Of a stretch of DNA of 64,000 nt, positions 9,647-16,456 are shown one piece after another (the first letter of the stretch is position 1; every line of letters starts with the position of its first letter). The notes under the pieces are model-generated. The model was not told where the DNA came from, searched no databases, and saw nothing but the letters and a program-made list of their open reading frames with translations. Location: the NCBI GenBank assembly GCA_026931325.1, contig JAIXLO010000160.1:186001-250000 (forward strand), given 5' to 3'. Origin of the DNA: Chitinophagales bacterium. Lineage in GTDB: Bacteria; Bacteroidota; Bacteroidia; Chitinophagales; Chitinophagaceae. Both the position numbers and the translations under genes were made by a program.

Positions 9647-10522
9647 ATGAGAAGAGCATTAGTCTTAAGTGGCGGTGGCTGTAAATCAGCGTTTCAAGTT
9701 GGCGCATTATATTATTTATTAAAGCAATTAAATAAAAAATATGATATATATTGCGGTGTCTCTGCCGGTGCATTAAATGCATCATTTTTAGGAATGTATC
9801 CGTCACATAATTCTAAAGAAGGTATTGAAGATTTATGTAAATTATGGCTAAATATACAGCAAAAAGATATAATAAAAAGACATTTCCCTTTTGGTAGATT
9901 GCATGGATTATGGAAAGATAGTTTTTATGATTCATCGCCATTAAAACATACAATAGAAAAAAATATTGATTTAAAAAAATTAAAATTTTCAAACATAGAT
10001 GTTTGCATAGGAAGTGTATCATTAAATTCTGGAGAATATTATGTATGTAATAAATTTAATAATAATTTTATTAAACATTTATTAGCATCATGTTCAATAC
10101 CAGGAATTTTTAGTCCAATTGAGATAGATAATAATTTGTGGATAGATGGAGGTTTAAGATCAATTACTCCATTACAAGCAGCCATAGATTATGGGGCAGA
10201 TGAAATAGATGTAATATTAACATCGCCAGAAAAAAATATTGCTAAAGTTAAAAAAAATGCAATACAGATATTAATAAGAAGCGTAGATATAATACTGGAC
10301 TCAATCATTGAAAATGATTTAAGAAAAGCCTATATTTATAATGAGTTAGTTAAAGATGGGTATGCTTGTAATAAAAAAATTTTAAAAATAAATGTTATAA
10401 GACCAAAAAATATTTTAATTAATGATTCATTGAAATTTAATTCATCGGACATATCTAATATGATAGATTTAGGATTTAAAGAGGCAATGGAGTATGAAAA
10501 AGTTAATAAAAGCCTACTGTGA
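9647..10522 (+). CDS. Patatin-like phospholipase
   Basis: The 291-residue protein shows all patatin landmarks. The oxyanion loop is GGGCKSAFQ at 9-17. The nucleophile elbow is G-V-S-A-G at 37-41 with Ser39. The dyad aspartate is in D-G-G at 167-169. Length and order fit single-domain bacterial patatins, which hydrolyse acyl chains of membrane phospholipids. No signal peptide or membrane segment is seen, so it would act from the cytoplasm. There is no Shine-Dalgarno; the palindrome lies 4 bp upstream. Its 3' end overlaps the next gene by 29 bp. A role in host membrane disruption at lysis is possible. No cyclase or cyclic-nucleotide partner lies nearby, so a defence effector role has no support here. 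Confidence 0.88.
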   Translation: MRRALVLSGGGCKSAFQVGALYYLLKQLNKKYDIYCGVSAGALNASFLGMYPSHNSKEGIEDLCKLWLNIQQKDIIKRHFPFGRLHGLWKDSFYDSSPLKHTIEKNIDLKKLKFSNIDVCIGSVSLNSGEYYVCNKFNNNFIKHLLASCSIPGIFSPIEIDNNLWIDGGLRSITPLQAAIDYGADEIDVILTSPEKNIAKVKKNAIQILIRSVDIILDSIIENDLRKAYIYNELVKDGYACNKKILKINVIRPKNILINDSLKFNSSDISNMIDLGFKEAMEYEKVNKSLL

Positions 10523-10802
10523 ATTAAATTGTGGCGAAACAAATAAAAACGCTTTACATTTTCATCATATAATACCACAAAATCAAGTTGAGTGTACAAA
10601 TGATCCAAATAACATTACTGTAATATGCGCTTCTTGTCATGAAAAAGTCCATTCAAATAATATAATAATAATTGGAGTTTTGCCTTCGACAAAATTACCA
10701 AATAAAAGAACATTGATTTATGAAATCGATGGAATAAAAAATATTGATATAGAAATACCGAAAGTTTTTAAAAAAAATTCATATGAATTAGGTAATAAAT
10801 GA
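10494..10802 (+). CDS. Small HNH-type endonuclease
   Basis: The 102-residue protein has an HNH/beta-beta-alpha-metal core: H-F-H-H-I-I-P-Q at 22-29, N-N at 39-40, and C-A-S-C-H-E-K-V-H at 45-53. C9 and C13 pair with C45 and C48 as a likely structural zinc site. The start inside the patatin gene (29-bp overlap) is needed to include C9, and GGAG lies about 4 bases upstream. Downstream of the core are about 45 residues without assignment. It may be a free-standing homing endonuclease or a small nicking enzyme. A 20-bp stretch encoding FHHIIPQ (10561-10580) recurs exactly at 24790-24809 in the HNH relic. Confidence 0.75.
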   Translation: MKKLIKAYCELNCGETNKNALHFHHIIPQNQVECTNDPNNITVICASCHEKVHSNNIIIIGVLPSTKLPNKRTLIYEIDGIKNIDIEIPKVFKKNSYELGNK

Positions 10803-12113: not shown

Positions 12114-13010
12114 ATGACAAAAGTTCGCGGCGAATATTTAAGTGTTACTGACACAGTAAATTTAACTATACAATTAACAGATGAGCTTGGGCAACCAATT
12201 AATGCTGACTCATTTCCTACAATATCTTTAATAAGTCCAACTGGATTAGTAATACTTCAGCCAACTAGTCAAGGGGTAACTCAATTAGATGTTGGTAAAT
12301 ATGAATATTCATTTACCATACCAATTAATGGTCCATATGGAGTTTTTACTGATTTATGGGTAGCATATGTTAATGGTCAAAGAATAGAACAAACTTTAAA
12401 TTTTATAGTTGCTCATACACAATTTGCCGCTATGAATATTGATGGGTATGAAAAATTAGGAGATGATACAGGTTTTAATTATTCTCAAGATGCCATTAAA
12501 AATATTAATAAATTAATTAAAATGTTGAGAGCAAGGTTGAATAGTGCTGGCAAAGCAAAAGCAAAAAATGACAAAGGCGAAGTTATTTATATAGATTGTG
12601 ATATTTTTTCTGTTGATATGTTAGTAACTTTTCTTGCTACCGCTCTTAGTGATTTTAATCAAACGCCATACTTTACATTTTTTCAATTTGATGACGCCGC
12701 ATTTGTTGCTCAATTTGGTGAAATATTAGTTGAAGGGGCAACATTGTATGCTTTATCAAGCATGGCGCTACTTGAACGCGGAAGAGAATATCAATTAACT
12801 GATAATTCTTTATCTTTTAATCCTCCAACAGTTTCAGAATTATTAAATACACAATACAATACATTATTGACTCATTATTGGGAAAAACTTAAATATATTA
12901 AAAATAGTTTAAGACCGGCTCCAATAGCTGCTGGAGTATTTAGTATGAGTAACTACGCAAGCCCTGCTATTAGAAGATTAAGGCTATTGAAAGAACGTAG
13001 TTTTTTTTGA
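12114..13010 (+). CDS. Virion structural protein with N-terminal Ig-like domain (probable neck/connector)
   Basis: In this 298-residue protein, residues 1-100 look like an immunoglobulin-like or macroglobulin-like beta domain (DTVNLTIQLTDELGQPI, VGKYEYSFTIP). Residues 120-298 are mainly helical (NINKLIKMLRARLNSAGKAKAK; ALYALSSMALLERGREYQLTD) and end AIRRLRLLKERSFF. A helical body with a beta extension ahead of the tail genes suits a neck or head-completion protein, but no signature proves it. No Shine-Dalgarno is present. Confidence 0.5.
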   Translation: MTKVRGEYLSVTDTVNLTIQLTDELGQPINADSFPTISLISPTGLVILQPTSQGVTQLDVGKYEYSFTIPINGPYGVFTDLWVAYVNGQRIEQTLNFIVAHTQFAAMNIDGYEKLGDDTGFNYSQDAIKNINKLIKMLRARLNSAGKAKAKNDKGEVIYIDCDIFSVDMLVTFLATALSDFNQTPYFTFFQFDDAAFVAQFGEILVEGATLYALSSMALLERGREYQLTDNSLSFNPPTVSELLNTQYNTLLTHYWEKLKYIKNSLRPAPIAAGVFSMSNYASPAIRRLRLLKERSFF

Positions 13011-13082: not shown

Positions 13083-13583
13083 ATGAAGGATAAATATTCA
13101 TTAGAAGAAGTAAAAAAAATTCCAAAAATAGAATTAAAAAAAATAATAGATAAAGGCAGAGAATATATAAAAAAATCAAAAGTTGTTAAAGATGCTTTTG
13201 ATGAATATAAAGCAAATTTAGATGAAATTGACCATATTCCTATTATTTTTACCAATTTAGATGTTTCGGCTAAAACAGATCACGGAATAATTCTATTGAA
13301 TTATGAATTATTATGTGATGGTAATTTTGAAAAAGATTATTCATATTTAGCTCATGAAATGGTGCATTATTTACAACAAACATGTAGAGAAAATGGTACA
13401 GAATCTTTTGATGGGCACTATTTAGATAATCCTGATGAGCAAGAAGGGTTTAAGGCTCAAATTCAATATATAGATGATGAGTATGGAGAATCTGAAGCAG
13501 ACAAGTATTTAGAGCATTTAATGAATTATCATGAAGTAGATGGAAATCATAAAGAAAAATTAGAAGATAAATTAAGAGAATAA
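13083..13583 (+). CDS. Putative zinc metalloprotease with HEMVH motif
   Basis: The 166-residue protein has A-H-E-M-V-H-Y-L-Q-Q at 90-99, an HExxH helix followed by glutamine. About 20 residues later it has D-N-P-D-E-Q-E-G-F-K-A-Q at 115-126; a glutamate there is the expected third zinc ligand. The first 50 residues are lysine-rich helix. It resembles the 682 protein only in this catalytic pattern. The position between a neck-like gene and an intein-bearing structural gene would suit a maturation or virion-associated peptidase, but that is inference. Flanking spacers are 72 bp and 14 bp; no Shine-Dalgarno is evident. Confidence 0.6.
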   Translation: MKDKYSLEEVKKIPKIELKKIIDKGREYIKKSKVVKDAFDEYKANLDEIDHIPIIFTNLDVSAKTDHGIILLNYELLCDGNFEKDYSYLAHEMVHYLQQTCRENGTESFDGHYLDNPDEQEGFKAQIQYIDDEYGESEADKYLEHLMNYHEVDGNHKEKLEDKLRE

Positions 13584-13597
13584 TTTTAAATTTTTTT

Positions 13598-16456
13598 ATG
13601 CCATATTATTTAATAAAAACAAAATTTGGGTTAGATTATGTTGGATCAGAAGGAGATGGAACCAATATAAAACTAAAATGGTATGAAGCTTTTCCAACTA
13701 CCCAAACAAATTCAATAGCGTACAATATATATTATTCAACAACAGAAGATGGAGTTTTTTTCGAGCCCCCAAAATATGTAAGTGTTGATAATATATTTCA
13801 AAAAACATTTTTAGATTTTGTTCCCGGTCAATTATATTATTTTGCAATAAGACCAATAGAATATAATTCATTAATTTATGACTATAATCTATTAGTTGAT
13901 GCTGGAAATGGTTTAAAAGCGTATCAGCAAACATTTTTAAAAAACAATATTACTGCGGATGATTTAGTAATTCCTGTAGATGATGTTACTGGATTTCCAT
14001 CATTTGGAACATTAAAGATAGGCTATGAATTAATAGAATATTCTAGTGTTGATACTTTAACAAATACTTTTAATGTTTCATTGAGAGGCGCCAGAAATAC
14101 TATTGCTAAAATGCATAATACAGATGGCTATGATGGAAGTTTAAAGTTAGATCCAACCGTTATGTATTATTTAGCTGATGATGATTCTAAATTTGACAAA
14201 GTTATGATTTGTCAATCTAGATTTGAATATCCAAAATTTTCTTTCACACAAGCAGATGGTTATAAACAGGTAACAAAAGATTTATTATACACAGATTTAT
14301 CCATTAGTGATGAACAAAATATAGATTTTCCATCATATAGTTATGTTGGGTGGCACAGAACAGACCCAAGTAAATTAATAGCCGGCGAATGTATTGGTTC
14401 TTATATTGGAGGATATCAATTTTGCGCTGACGGATATGCAAATGTTGGCACAATGATAAGAAATATTTCTATGCAAGATGCCAATAATCAAAGACAAGAA
14501 ATGCTTCTTGAACAAACAGGAGAACCAGTTGTATTATTAAGAAAACAAACGACTGGAATAGTATGTACATGTTATCAACCAAGTAGCGAATATCATGATG
14601 ATAGATGCCCATATTGTTTTGGAGAAGGTACAATCATAAGGACTTCTGAAGGCTTTGAAGAAATTCAAAATATAAAAATTGGAGATAAAGTTTTATCTGC
14701 TAATGGAGAGTTTAATAAGGTAGTAGGAATTTCAAAGCAACCATATAGTGGAAAATTAAGATCTATAAAAACATCATCATCTGTAAATCCTATAATAGTT
14801 ACTCCAAATCATGAATTTGTTGCATTAAGAGGATCTCATAAAATGGTTCATAAATGTGGACCAAATACATCATGTAAAGCGTTTATATCAAGAGGAGATG
14901 GGCTAAGAGATCCAGATATTACACAATTAAAGAATGGAAAATATTATTTAAGATCTAACATAAAAAATCATAAGAGAAAGTCATTAGGAACTTTTAATTG
15001 TTTTGAAGATGCAATTACTAAATATGAAGAATATAACTTTGATCACTTTAAACCTGGACATGAATTAAAATGGGAATACGCTAAAGATTTAAATAAGAAT
15101 GACTGGATTGTCTCTAAATGGAATACATATGAGAATGATATTAAGGTAATTGAAATACCAAAAGAATTTCAAAAAAATACTAAATTGGGGGAAGGTAGAA
15201 TAGGCGATACAGTATTTGAAGTTAATGAAGAATTTTTATGGATTTGTGGACTATATATTGCTGAGGGAAGCAGTGGTAAAAGATCAATACAATTTGCTTT
15301 ACATAAAGATGAAATTGAATATCAAAATAGAGTAATTAATTATTTTAAATCAAAAAATTTTAATCCAAAATTAAGAACCGTTAAAAATTCAAAAGGAGTG
15401 GTTGTAGAAGTAAACAGCACCTCGCTATCAAAATGGTTTCCAGCATTACTAGGAAAATTATGCTACAACAAAAAAATACCGAATGAATTTACAACACTTC
15501 CAAAAAATAAAATAAGAGCAATTATAGATGGTATTTTTTGTGGTGATGGTTGTAAAAGAGATAATATCATTGCCCAAACATCTAAATATCTAGCCATTCA
15601 ATTAGTTGAATTATTACATAAAATTGGCAAGATGCCAATGGTTTCTATTGAGAACAAAAATAAATTAACAAAAAGTGGTAACAAGTTAAATACAGTATAT
15701 CATGTTAGTTATGAACCTGATACCTATTTAAGAGATAATAGAGTTTCCAAAAATAAAGGTAAATGGAAATTTAATGAGCATATGTTAACTATGATTTCAA
15801 ATATTGATGAAATTGACTATGATGGATACGTCTATAATTTAGAAATTGAAAATGATCATAGTTATGTCGTAGAAAATATTTTAGTGCATAATTGTTTTGG
15901 TACCAAATTTGTTCTAGGATATGACCAATATTTTAATCCTAGAAGATCTGATGGTAGAATATTGGTAAGATTTAGTCCTGGAGAAGATGATGTTAAGGTA
16001 TATGAAGCTGGATTAGAATCAGAATTTAATACAGAATGTTGGACATTAACTGTTCCTACTATCAAGGATAGGGACGTAATTGTAAGATATGATTTAGCAG
16101 ATAATGAAGAATATAGATATGAAGTTCTTTCTGTTACAAGACAGCGTACATTTTTAAGGCAGGAAGGTGGGCAAAAATTTAGAGTACAAAGAATAAGAAA
16201 AACTGATCCAGTTTATCAGATACGAGTATTTAAAAATACTTCAAAAATTCCAGAAACAATTTCTACAAGTTTTTCTTTTTCAAATGGAATTCCATTACAT
16301 AAACATGATTTTGTTATAAATGAAGGAGCTATTAGTAATATGAGTCAATTAACAAGTATTAGTCAAGGTCACAATCATTTAATAACATACAATTCTGCTA
16401 CTGGAAAACTAGAAGTATCTGAAGTTCTTGGTCATAAACACGAAATTATTATATAA
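13598..16456 (+). CDS. Intein-containing virion structural protein (precursor)
   Basis: The 952-residue precursor contains a 426-residue intein (residues 340-765), leaving a 526-residue mature protein. The N-extein starts with a fibronectin III-like domain (about 1-95: IKLKWYEAF...YYFAIRPIE). Before the junction, C323-x-C325 and C337-P-Y form three quarters of a four-Cys metal site; the fourth Cys is supplied by Cys766, the first C-extein residue, only after splicing. The C-extein continues FGTKFVLGYDQYFNPRR and a beta region. It ends with three H-x-H-like motifs (HKHDF, GHNH, GHKHEI), which resemble metal-binding His sites in trimeric phage fibres. It lies 7 bp before the next structural gene. 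The exact position in the virion is unknown; neck or baseplate periphery is plausible. Confidence 0.7.
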   Translation: MPYYLIKTKFGLDYVGSEGDGTNIKLKWYEAFPTTQTNSIAYNIYYSTTEDGVFFEPPKYVSVDNIFQKTFLDFVPGQLYYFAIRPIEYNSLIYDYNLLVDAGNGLKAYQQTFLKNNITADDLVIPVDDVTGFPSFGTLKIGYELIEYSSVDTLTNTFNVSLRGARNTIAKMHNTDGYDGSLKLDPTVMYYLADDDSKFDKVMICQSRFEYPKFSFTQADGYKQVTKDLLYTDLSISDEQNIDFPSYSYVGWHRTDPSKLIAGECIGSYIGGYQFCADGYANVGTMIRNISMQDANNQRQEMLLEQTGEPVVLLRKQTTGIVCTCYQPSSEYHDDRCPYCFGEGTIIRTSEGFEEIQNIKIGDKVLSANGEFNKVVGISKQPYSGKLRSIKTSSSVNPIIVTPNHEFVALRGSHKMVHKCGPNTSCKAFISRGDGLRDPDITQLKNGKYYLRSNIKNHKRKSLGTFNCFEDAITKYEEYNFDHFKPGHELKWEYAKDLNKNDWIVSKWNTYENDIKVIEIPKEFQKNTKLGEGRIGDTVFEVNEEFLWICGLYIAEGSSGKRSIQFALHKDEIEYQNRVINYFKSKNFNPKLRTVKNSKGVVVEVNSTSLSKWFPALLGKLCYNKKIPNEFTTLPKNKIRAIIDGIFCGDGCKRDNIIAQTSKYLAIQLVELLHKIGKMPMVSIENKNKLTKSGNKLNTVYHVSYEPDTYLRDNRVSKNKGKWKFNEHMLTMISNIDEIDYDGYVYNLEIENDHSYVVENILVHNCFGTKFVLGYDQYFNPRRSDGRILVRFSPGEDDVKVYEAGLESEFNTECWTLTVPTIKDRDVIVRYDLADNEEYRYEVLSVTRQRTFLRQEGGQKFRVQRIRKTDPVYQIRVFKNTSKIPETISTSFSFSNGIPLHKHDFVINEGAISNMSQLTSISQGHNHLITYNSATGKLEVSEVLGHKHEIII
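14615..15892 (+). mobile_element. Intein with LAGLIDADG homing endonuclease
   Basis: The element encodes 426 residues, from Cys340 to Asn765 of the precursor. Splicing motifs are complete. Block A is C-F-G-E-G-T-I-I-R-T with the IKIGDKVLS strand. Block B is T-P-N-H. The C-terminal blocks are DGYVYNLEIENDHSYVVENILV-H-N, followed by Cys +1. The endonuclease part has two dodecapeptide-like motifs, LWICGLYIAEGS (547-558) and AIIDGIFCGDG (641-651), with an acidic residue in each. The 8-bp sequence TGTTTTGG occurs at both DNA junctions (14615 and 15893), so a clean deletion restores the uninterrupted gene. It appears intact, so splicing and homing are likely active. Confidence 0.93.

Follow-up and report, generated by a model that had tools for sequence, protein, structure and literature searches.

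A probably mobile LAGLIDADG intein at the predicted zinc loop of a likely phage neck stopper

Introduction

Phage inteins have been described from conserved functional motifs of their host genes. In mycobacteriophages, six lie in portal proteins, a structural gene, and the same table records 11 in a hypothetical protein; the accessible text of that study mentions none for a stopper, tail or capsid protein (Kelley et al. 2016, PMC5050341). The neck stopper of Staphylococcus phage 812, gp97, has a tetra-cysteine loop, described only in 2026, that was zinc-bound in the crystal, and the accessible part of that work gives the cysteine pattern as conserved in Herelleviridae and in no other phage group (PMC12886913). 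Here we analysed a 64,000-nucleotide stretch (the window) filed under a Chitinophagales bacterium (assembly GCA_026931325.1, contig JAIXLO010000160.1, positions 186,001 to 250,000), in which one gene encodes a protein with such a cysteine loop, interrupted by an intein. We consider it probable that this is a mobile class 1 intein with a LAGLIDADG endonuclease, placed immediately ahead of the final cysteine in the predicted zinc loop of a neck stopper and spreading by selfish homing. It is an intein of familiar type in an unusual host gene, and no report of an intein in a stopper was found in the open-licence literature, as judged from titles, abstract starts and passages. The locus offers the case of an apparently horizontally moving intein placed at one exact site of a likely virion neck protein, with 16 further viral contigs named for comparison.

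The window belongs to a 383,427-base contig (C75) of a 3.1-Mb assembly. The genes of C75 include those for a tail sheath, two helicases and the large subunit of a terminase, and on this basis we read the contig as a jumbo phage that was binned with the bacterium.

The intein retains its nucleophiles and block B

The reading frame at 13598-16456 (plus strand, as are all features with window coordinates below that belong to it) is open and encodes 952 residues. Its N-extein comprises residues 1-339 (13598-14614), the intein the 426 residues from C340 to N765 (14615-15892), and the C-extein residues 766-952 (15893-16456), with HKH, HNH and HKH motifs near its C terminus. Joining the exteins gives a protein of 526 amino acids whose junction reads ...GIVCTCYQPSSEYHDDRCPY|CFGTKF.... 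The sequence-only reading had proposed an intact intein beginning at C340 with C766 as the +1 residue, and both boundaries proved exact; the span of 14606-15895 that it quoted runs from C337 to C766.

Splicing motifs were compared across 14 distinct rows, with the partial L105 and the copies L103 and L106 set aside. The first nucleophile, Cys1 (C340, 14615-14617), is invariant across the 14. Block B, TPNH in the window with T63 and H66 of the intein (14801-14812), is present in 13 of 14, the exception being L108, which has TPDH out of register in the alignment. Blocks F and G (VYNLEIENDHSYVVENILVHN, 15830-15892) end in the His-Asn pair found in all 14 rows, followed by C766 as the +1 Cys. The window frame scored 52.3 bits with Pfam Intein_splicing (cut-off 35.8) and 18.6 with the C-terminal splicing model TIGR01443 (cut-off 15.6), while the N-terminal model TIGR01445 fell below its threshold (19.6 vs 24.5). 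A structural model of the precursor matched PI-SceI (1vde, E 7.6e-19) and also I-DmoI in a fold search.

Both catalytic acids expected of a two-motif LAGLIDADG homing endonuclease are present. Motif 1, LWICGLYIAEGS (15236-15271), holds E217 of the intein, a position that is Glu in 12 rows and Asp in two of the 14, and motif 2, DGIFCGDG (15527-15550), holds D311, which is Asp in 14 of 14. The fold of the splicing domain and endonuclease is shared with PI-SceI and other LAGLIDADG inteins, at a sequence identity of 14-17% in full-length PI-SceI matches. Unlike PI-SceI, the window intein has a putative DNA-binding AP2-like domain, which follows block B and precedes LAGLIDADG motif 1, at residues about 440-483 (14915-15046), where the precursor model shows a beta-beta-beta-alpha arrangement. 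In a Pfam domain scan of eight inteins, the window's and those of seven relatives, AP2 matched L098 (4.4e-5) and L110 (6.6e-4) with scores that did not reach the curated cut-off, and it gave no match in the window's own intein.

Three observations weigh against an intein that is fully competent to splice and home. The block F Asp is replaced by Asn in 13 of 14 rows, including the window, with Asp kept in L108 only; the block F His is replaced in four of the 14 rows, although not in the window; and LAGLIDADG_3 scored 18.8 in the window intein against a cut-off of 22.5, so that the endonuclease of this copy could be decayed. The same model was above its cut-off in L098, L107, L116, L099 and L108, and below it in L104 and L110 as in the window. 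In canonical inteins the block F Asp assists the first step as a conserved helper rather than a nucleophile, according to the text available from PMC10663303. We kept the class 1 assignment, which rests on the nucleophiles and block B, with the missing block F Asp as an exception.

The Asn substitution and the low LAGLIDADG_3 score could also be taken to indicate a dead intein, in which the insert stays unspliced and the full 952 residues make up the working protein, or in which the gene is in decay. However, as Asn for Asp is common to nearly all rows, it is not decay of the window copy; the window keeps Cys1, the block B Thr and His, the closing His-Asn and the +1 Cys, of which Cys1, block B and His-Asn are conserved across the alignment as given above, the reading frame is open, and the loop is contiguous in 80 intein-free relatives. 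A dead intein is accordingly very improbable, and an intein that would still splice is the reading we retain.

Within the intein, His75 and a Cys81/Cys87 pair (window about 14830-14880) are invariant in seven aligned inteins and lie just before the AP2-like part; they could form a metal site belonging to the intein.

The insertion site is a cysteine loop that is uninterrupted in homologues

The predicted zinc loop begins with Cys323-Thr-Cys325 (14564-14572), the first two candidate ligands, and continues with Cys337 (14606-14608), the third, which occupies position -3 relative to the intein; all four cysteines align with Herelleviridae stoppers. After splicing the loop would read C323-T-C325-x11-C337-P-Y-C766, or C-x-C-x11-C-x2-C, and C766 would serve both as the +1 nucleophile and as fourth ligand. 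It had been proposed that the fourth ligand is supplied only by splicing. C766 does complete the spliced site, but the position is not empty beforehand: the precursor reads CTC-x11-CPYC, with C340 standing where C766 will stand, so the loop motif is complete before and after splicing alike.

Searches with the joined extein weakly identified relatives in Tunturiibacter phage Tunturi_5 (E 5e-4), Bacillus phage G (4), Salmonella phage Arash (0.2) and Vibrio phage D181 (0.6). Family members from viral contigs gave clearer results as queries, one of them finding Tunturi_5 at 2e-25 and Bacillus phage G at 1e-11 and another finding Arash at 6e-4. All four cysteines are common to the window and these four named phages, and the phage proteins lack the insert. 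Scanning the IMG/VR viral contigs with the alignment of the window and these phages yielded 206 relatives, and the best 80 of the 206 are all uninterrupted at the site, a ranking that favours uninterrupted genes. The four cysteines occur in the expected spacing in 65 of these 80 by regular expression, which did not match in the other 15; since the scan pattern required the last Cys, this set says nothing on the conservation of that residue. The expectation that intein-free homologues carry an unbroken motif was thus borne out.

The closest intein-free relatives are L009, L010 and L011 (64%, 54% and 66%), and their loop codons are contiguous. L011 also keeps five neighbours of the window gene, those at 12114 (63%), 13083 (46%), 16463 (25%), 17670 (40%) and 18060 (45%). 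Close relatives were not recovered among named phages with a 144-aa extein query (none at E 0.01) or among viral contigs with the full precursor (no pattern match), and a set of 98 further genomes from relatives yielded none at E 0.001.

The extein is a likely neck stopper

Pfam gave no name for the extein, and PHROGs placed the extein part in phrog_38102, annotated only as "virion structural protein". An AlphaFold2 model of L011 (mean pLDDT 76) had neck chains of phage 812 as its two best fold matches in the PDB (Foldseek, E 7.0e-7 and 9.0e-6), and a T1 stopper/tail-terminator chain was also among the matches (5.2e-3). The best PDB sequence match of a 47-homologue profile was 8q01_S (E 0.0068), aligned on the four cysteines; judging from its matching CPC-xn-CxxC motif and the entry codes, this chain is presumably gp97. 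Comparison by hhalign with six Herelleviridae homologues of the 812 chain, whose own annotations go no further than capsid, virion structural or hypothetical protein, gave a probability of 94.6% (E 7.2e-8) over 91 columns, and the alignment extends past the cysteine loop to the part where 812 has its gating loop, a part that in the window protein lies in the C-extein. The window gene also lies upstream of the tail sheath gene, as does its counterpart in a Herelleviridae record. These data suggest that the extein is a neck stopper and a remote homologue of 812 gp97, which is likely rather than proven, and they agree with the earlier assignment to a virion structural protein of the tail or neck.

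The window protein resembles gp97 in the C-x-C-x11-C-x2-C loop, in the region after it that aligns with the gating loop and in the place upstream of the tail sheath. It differs in its long beta-rich N-terminal part and its HxH-rich tail, and neither the 292-aa gp97 chain nor the six aligned Herelleviridae homologues have an intein. In contrast to the restriction to Herelleviridae stated in the available text of PMC12886913, the tetra-cysteine loop is found here in phages that their records do not assign to that family.

Several results count against a stopper of the 812 type. Query-normalised TM-scores to the 812 neck chains were only 0.20, and fibronectin type III domains made up most of the other listed fold matches (best 6.6e-4). 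A five-row profile (A1) had no PDB match and reached only 40% in hhalign. The adjoining gene at 12114 was not recognisably an 812 adaptor (hhalign 0.4%), which weakens membership of the 812-type stoppers without excluding it. The low whole-length scores and the missing adaptor would fit an extein that is another neck or tail protein, such as a tail completion or collar protein, sharing only the zinc loop with gp97; the Tunturi_5 relative is annotated as a minor tail protein and the Arash relative as a structural protein. Against this, the hhalign match runs beyond the loop, the two best fold matches are both 812 neck chains, and the gene order relative to the tail sheath is that of the Herelleviridae record. 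We consider this alternative unlikely, with a modest chance of being correct, and use "stopper" below in the sense of the preferred, likely assignment.

Sixteen other viral contigs carry an intein at the same site

A DNA pattern for the intein end followed by the extein motif, HN|C[FY]GT....G[FY], matched 15 stretches in IMG/VR. Twelve of these encode an intein at the stopper site, and the other three, including L100, are chance matches. One contig, L105, begins inside the intein, and only the intein end and C-extein are visible. The same pattern matched 11 times in a 257-Gb collection of bacterial and archaeal genomes, with none of the 11 belonging to the family by eye. A scan with seven inteins found 22 relatives, of which the 12 closest were all at the stopper site, four of them on new contigs. 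Of the other ten, the eight inspected (all but L135 and L137) were either in other genes or not placeable. A further pattern gave 13 matches, all on contigs already known. In total, the site is occupied by an intein in 16 viral contigs in addition to the window. The site intein was not recognised in named phage records, among the matches listed.

The sequence-only reading had presented the locus as an unusual case. The host gene is indeed unusual, but the window is not single: the 16 contigs share its site, and inteins in portal genes are published. A site shared with the Erwinia jumbo phages that BLAST identified was ruled out, as their protein is an intein-bearing C-5 cytosine DNA methylase.

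Inteins at the site are not uniform. Those of L101 and L103 are identical, as are those of L099 and L106; the L099 intein lacks the AP2-like insert, and that of L108 is very divergent. For the latter two reasons, the site may have been struck by more than one intein lineage. Three of the intein-bearing exteins, L108, L118 and L126, form long branches and were placed in the family mostly through the loop motif.

The distribution of the intein points to horizontal movement

An extein tree was built from 83 rows after removal of identical ones, with L127 standing for L097, and without L103 and L106 as copies of L101 and L099. Fifteen rows carry the intein, and its presence requires at least 10 gains or losses, compared to 14.0 for shuffled labels, so intein presence is clustered but scattered. 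In this tree the window is sister to the intein-free L009 (support 98/84). Identities were tabulated for 12 rows, omitting L099 and L108 because their inteins differ from the others. Inteins were 37-68% identical across exteins that were 15-72% alike. The mismatch was marked for L116 and L102 (intein 57%, extein 23%), for the window and L102 (45% and 24%), and for L118 against the other 11 (42-55% and 17-29%). Because of the number of changes on the extein tree and this discrepancy between intein and extein identities, the intein has apparently moved horizontally between phages.

A point on the other side is that intein and extein distances correlate in the same 12 rows (Mantel r 0.51, p 0.0019). 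The history is therefore partly vertical, and both descent and transfer have acted. The intein tree covered 22 rows; good support was obtained for only three of its 19 inner branches, and three changes are required for the site inteins.

Collectively, these observations fit a homing cycle at the stopper gene. Translation would yield the 952-residue precursor, in which Cys1 (C340) would attack, C766 would take over the thioester and Asn765 would cyclise, releasing a 526-residue stopper with a complete CxC-x11-CxxC loop. The endonuclease, with the AP2-like domain helping, would cut stopper genes that lack the intein, within the conserved codons of the loop, and repair would then copy the intein into the cut gene. 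The site may be favoured because the last Cys, kept as a metal ligand, supplies the +1 nucleophile, and because imprecise loss of the intein would destroy an essential loop.

The junction repeat is a codon coincidence

The 8-bp sequence TGTTTTGG, at 14615 and 15893, is present at both intein junctions as first noted, but it is no insertion mark. The intein-free L009 has the same eight bases at its uninterrupted site, and the run common to both junctions spans 2-4 bases in the 13 further site inteins that were compared. The window contains six copies of TGTTTTGG on both strands, compared to a mean of 2.7 in shuffles, and seven of 100 shuffles had at least six. Given Cys-Phe-Gly on both sides, the probability of identical Cys and Phe codons is about 0.54 with the codon use of the window. 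A target-site duplication is ruled out by these four results; the repeat is a codon coincidence that arises from Cys-Phe-Gly being coded twice in an AT-rich gene.

A possible metal or redox switch at the splice site

Since the intein nucleophile stands at the fourth ligand position, the locus offers a clean natural test of metal or disulfide control of splicing. Splicing could be a regulated switch in which Cys1 forms a zinc site with Cys323, Cys325 and Cys337, or a CPYC disulfide with Cys337, either of which would block the first splicing step. Splicing, and hence neck assembly, would then wait for metal exchange or reduction, and such a switch would make maturation of the phage DNA gate depend on metal or redox conditions in the infected cell.

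Precedents for the idea exist. The MoaA protein binds iron-sulfur clusters. In the intein of Pyrococcus abyssi MoaA, an N-extein Cys at -3 stands together with the catalytic Cys1, the extein has a metal site, and a native disulfide between Cys-3 and Cys1 controls the intein; unlike the window protein, MoaA is an archaeal enzyme and not a virion protein, and redox control has been demonstrated for it (PMC3922620; PMC10663303, in the parts available). Likewise, zinc on the catalytic Cys blocks a mycobacterial DnaB intein in the accessible text of PMC7360933. The window has the same redox-trap arrangement of a Cys at -3 with Cys1, C340 is in register with the fourth ligand, and across the 14 intein-bearing rows position -3 holds Cys 12 times and His twice.

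However, Cys-3 is a likely zinc ligand that the extein keeps anyway, so the geometry alone is no evidence for regulation, and the presence of this Cys does not indicate selection for it. In the precursor model the loop was predicted poorly (pLDDT 58 and 56 for residues 321-330 and 331-340), compared to 88 and 91 in intein-free L011, for two models that come from different queries and different alignments. Folding alignment A2 had 57 rows, comprising the window, nine of the 12 intein-bearing loci then known and 47 of the 80 intein-free relatives, and A3 had the same 47 of 80. The low confidence for the precursor loop is a weak hint that the metal site does not form around Cys1. We regard a switch as improbable, and selfish homing into a loop whose cysteines are kept for the extein's own sake remains our preferred reading.

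Neighbouring genes

Window 13083-13583 encodes a 166-aa protein with an HExxH motif and no NCBIfam match. The gene and its motif are kept near the stopper gene in L011, L012 and L015, and the product is possibly a zinc peptidase of the neck cluster. A patatin-like phospholipase at window 9647-10802 (Pfam 2.4e-31) overlaps a gene for a small HNH protein. Comparison of the window with Rfam at gathering thresholds gave no RNA element.

Other inteins on the contig, in the assembly and in relatives

A protein search of the genome for a close second copy of the stopper intein found the window copy only. C75 has other inteins, likewise at conserved motifs, in the terminase large subunit and in UvrD-like and UvsW-like helicases; in the intein tree they branch apart from the stopper intein and are not its close kin. 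The genes of this group, together with that of L090 below, were confirmed by Pfam. The terminase large subunit (L089, GpA_ATPase, C75:156233-157195) and the UvrD-like helicase (L092, C75:92298-92624) carry sister inteins (support 100/99) inserted at a common type of site, Asp-Glu-Cys|...|Cys-Gln-Asp, that of the helicase being only 154 aa long. An intein jump between these two unrelated ATPases is likely. The UvsW-like helicase (L093, UvsW_N and ResIII, C75:252781-254052) has a 444-aa intein placed by eye at Walker A, with a +1 Thr. On another contig of the assembly, a ribonucleotide reductase frame (L090, C181:11986-14793) apparently contains two inteins.

Related inteins were also found in other genes of viral contigs. 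A DnaG-like primase (L130:3848-5893; dnaG and DNAG_N matches below the curated cut-off) has an intein with 30% identity that by eye lies inside a Cys-rich zinc region, CPCCG...|CWHC, and this is possibly a second metal site split by a related intein. L128:3320-5968 and L129:1418-6124 encode PcfJ-like proteins (Pfam above cut-off) in which the related inteins directly precede the Cys in an HCVGGY motif.

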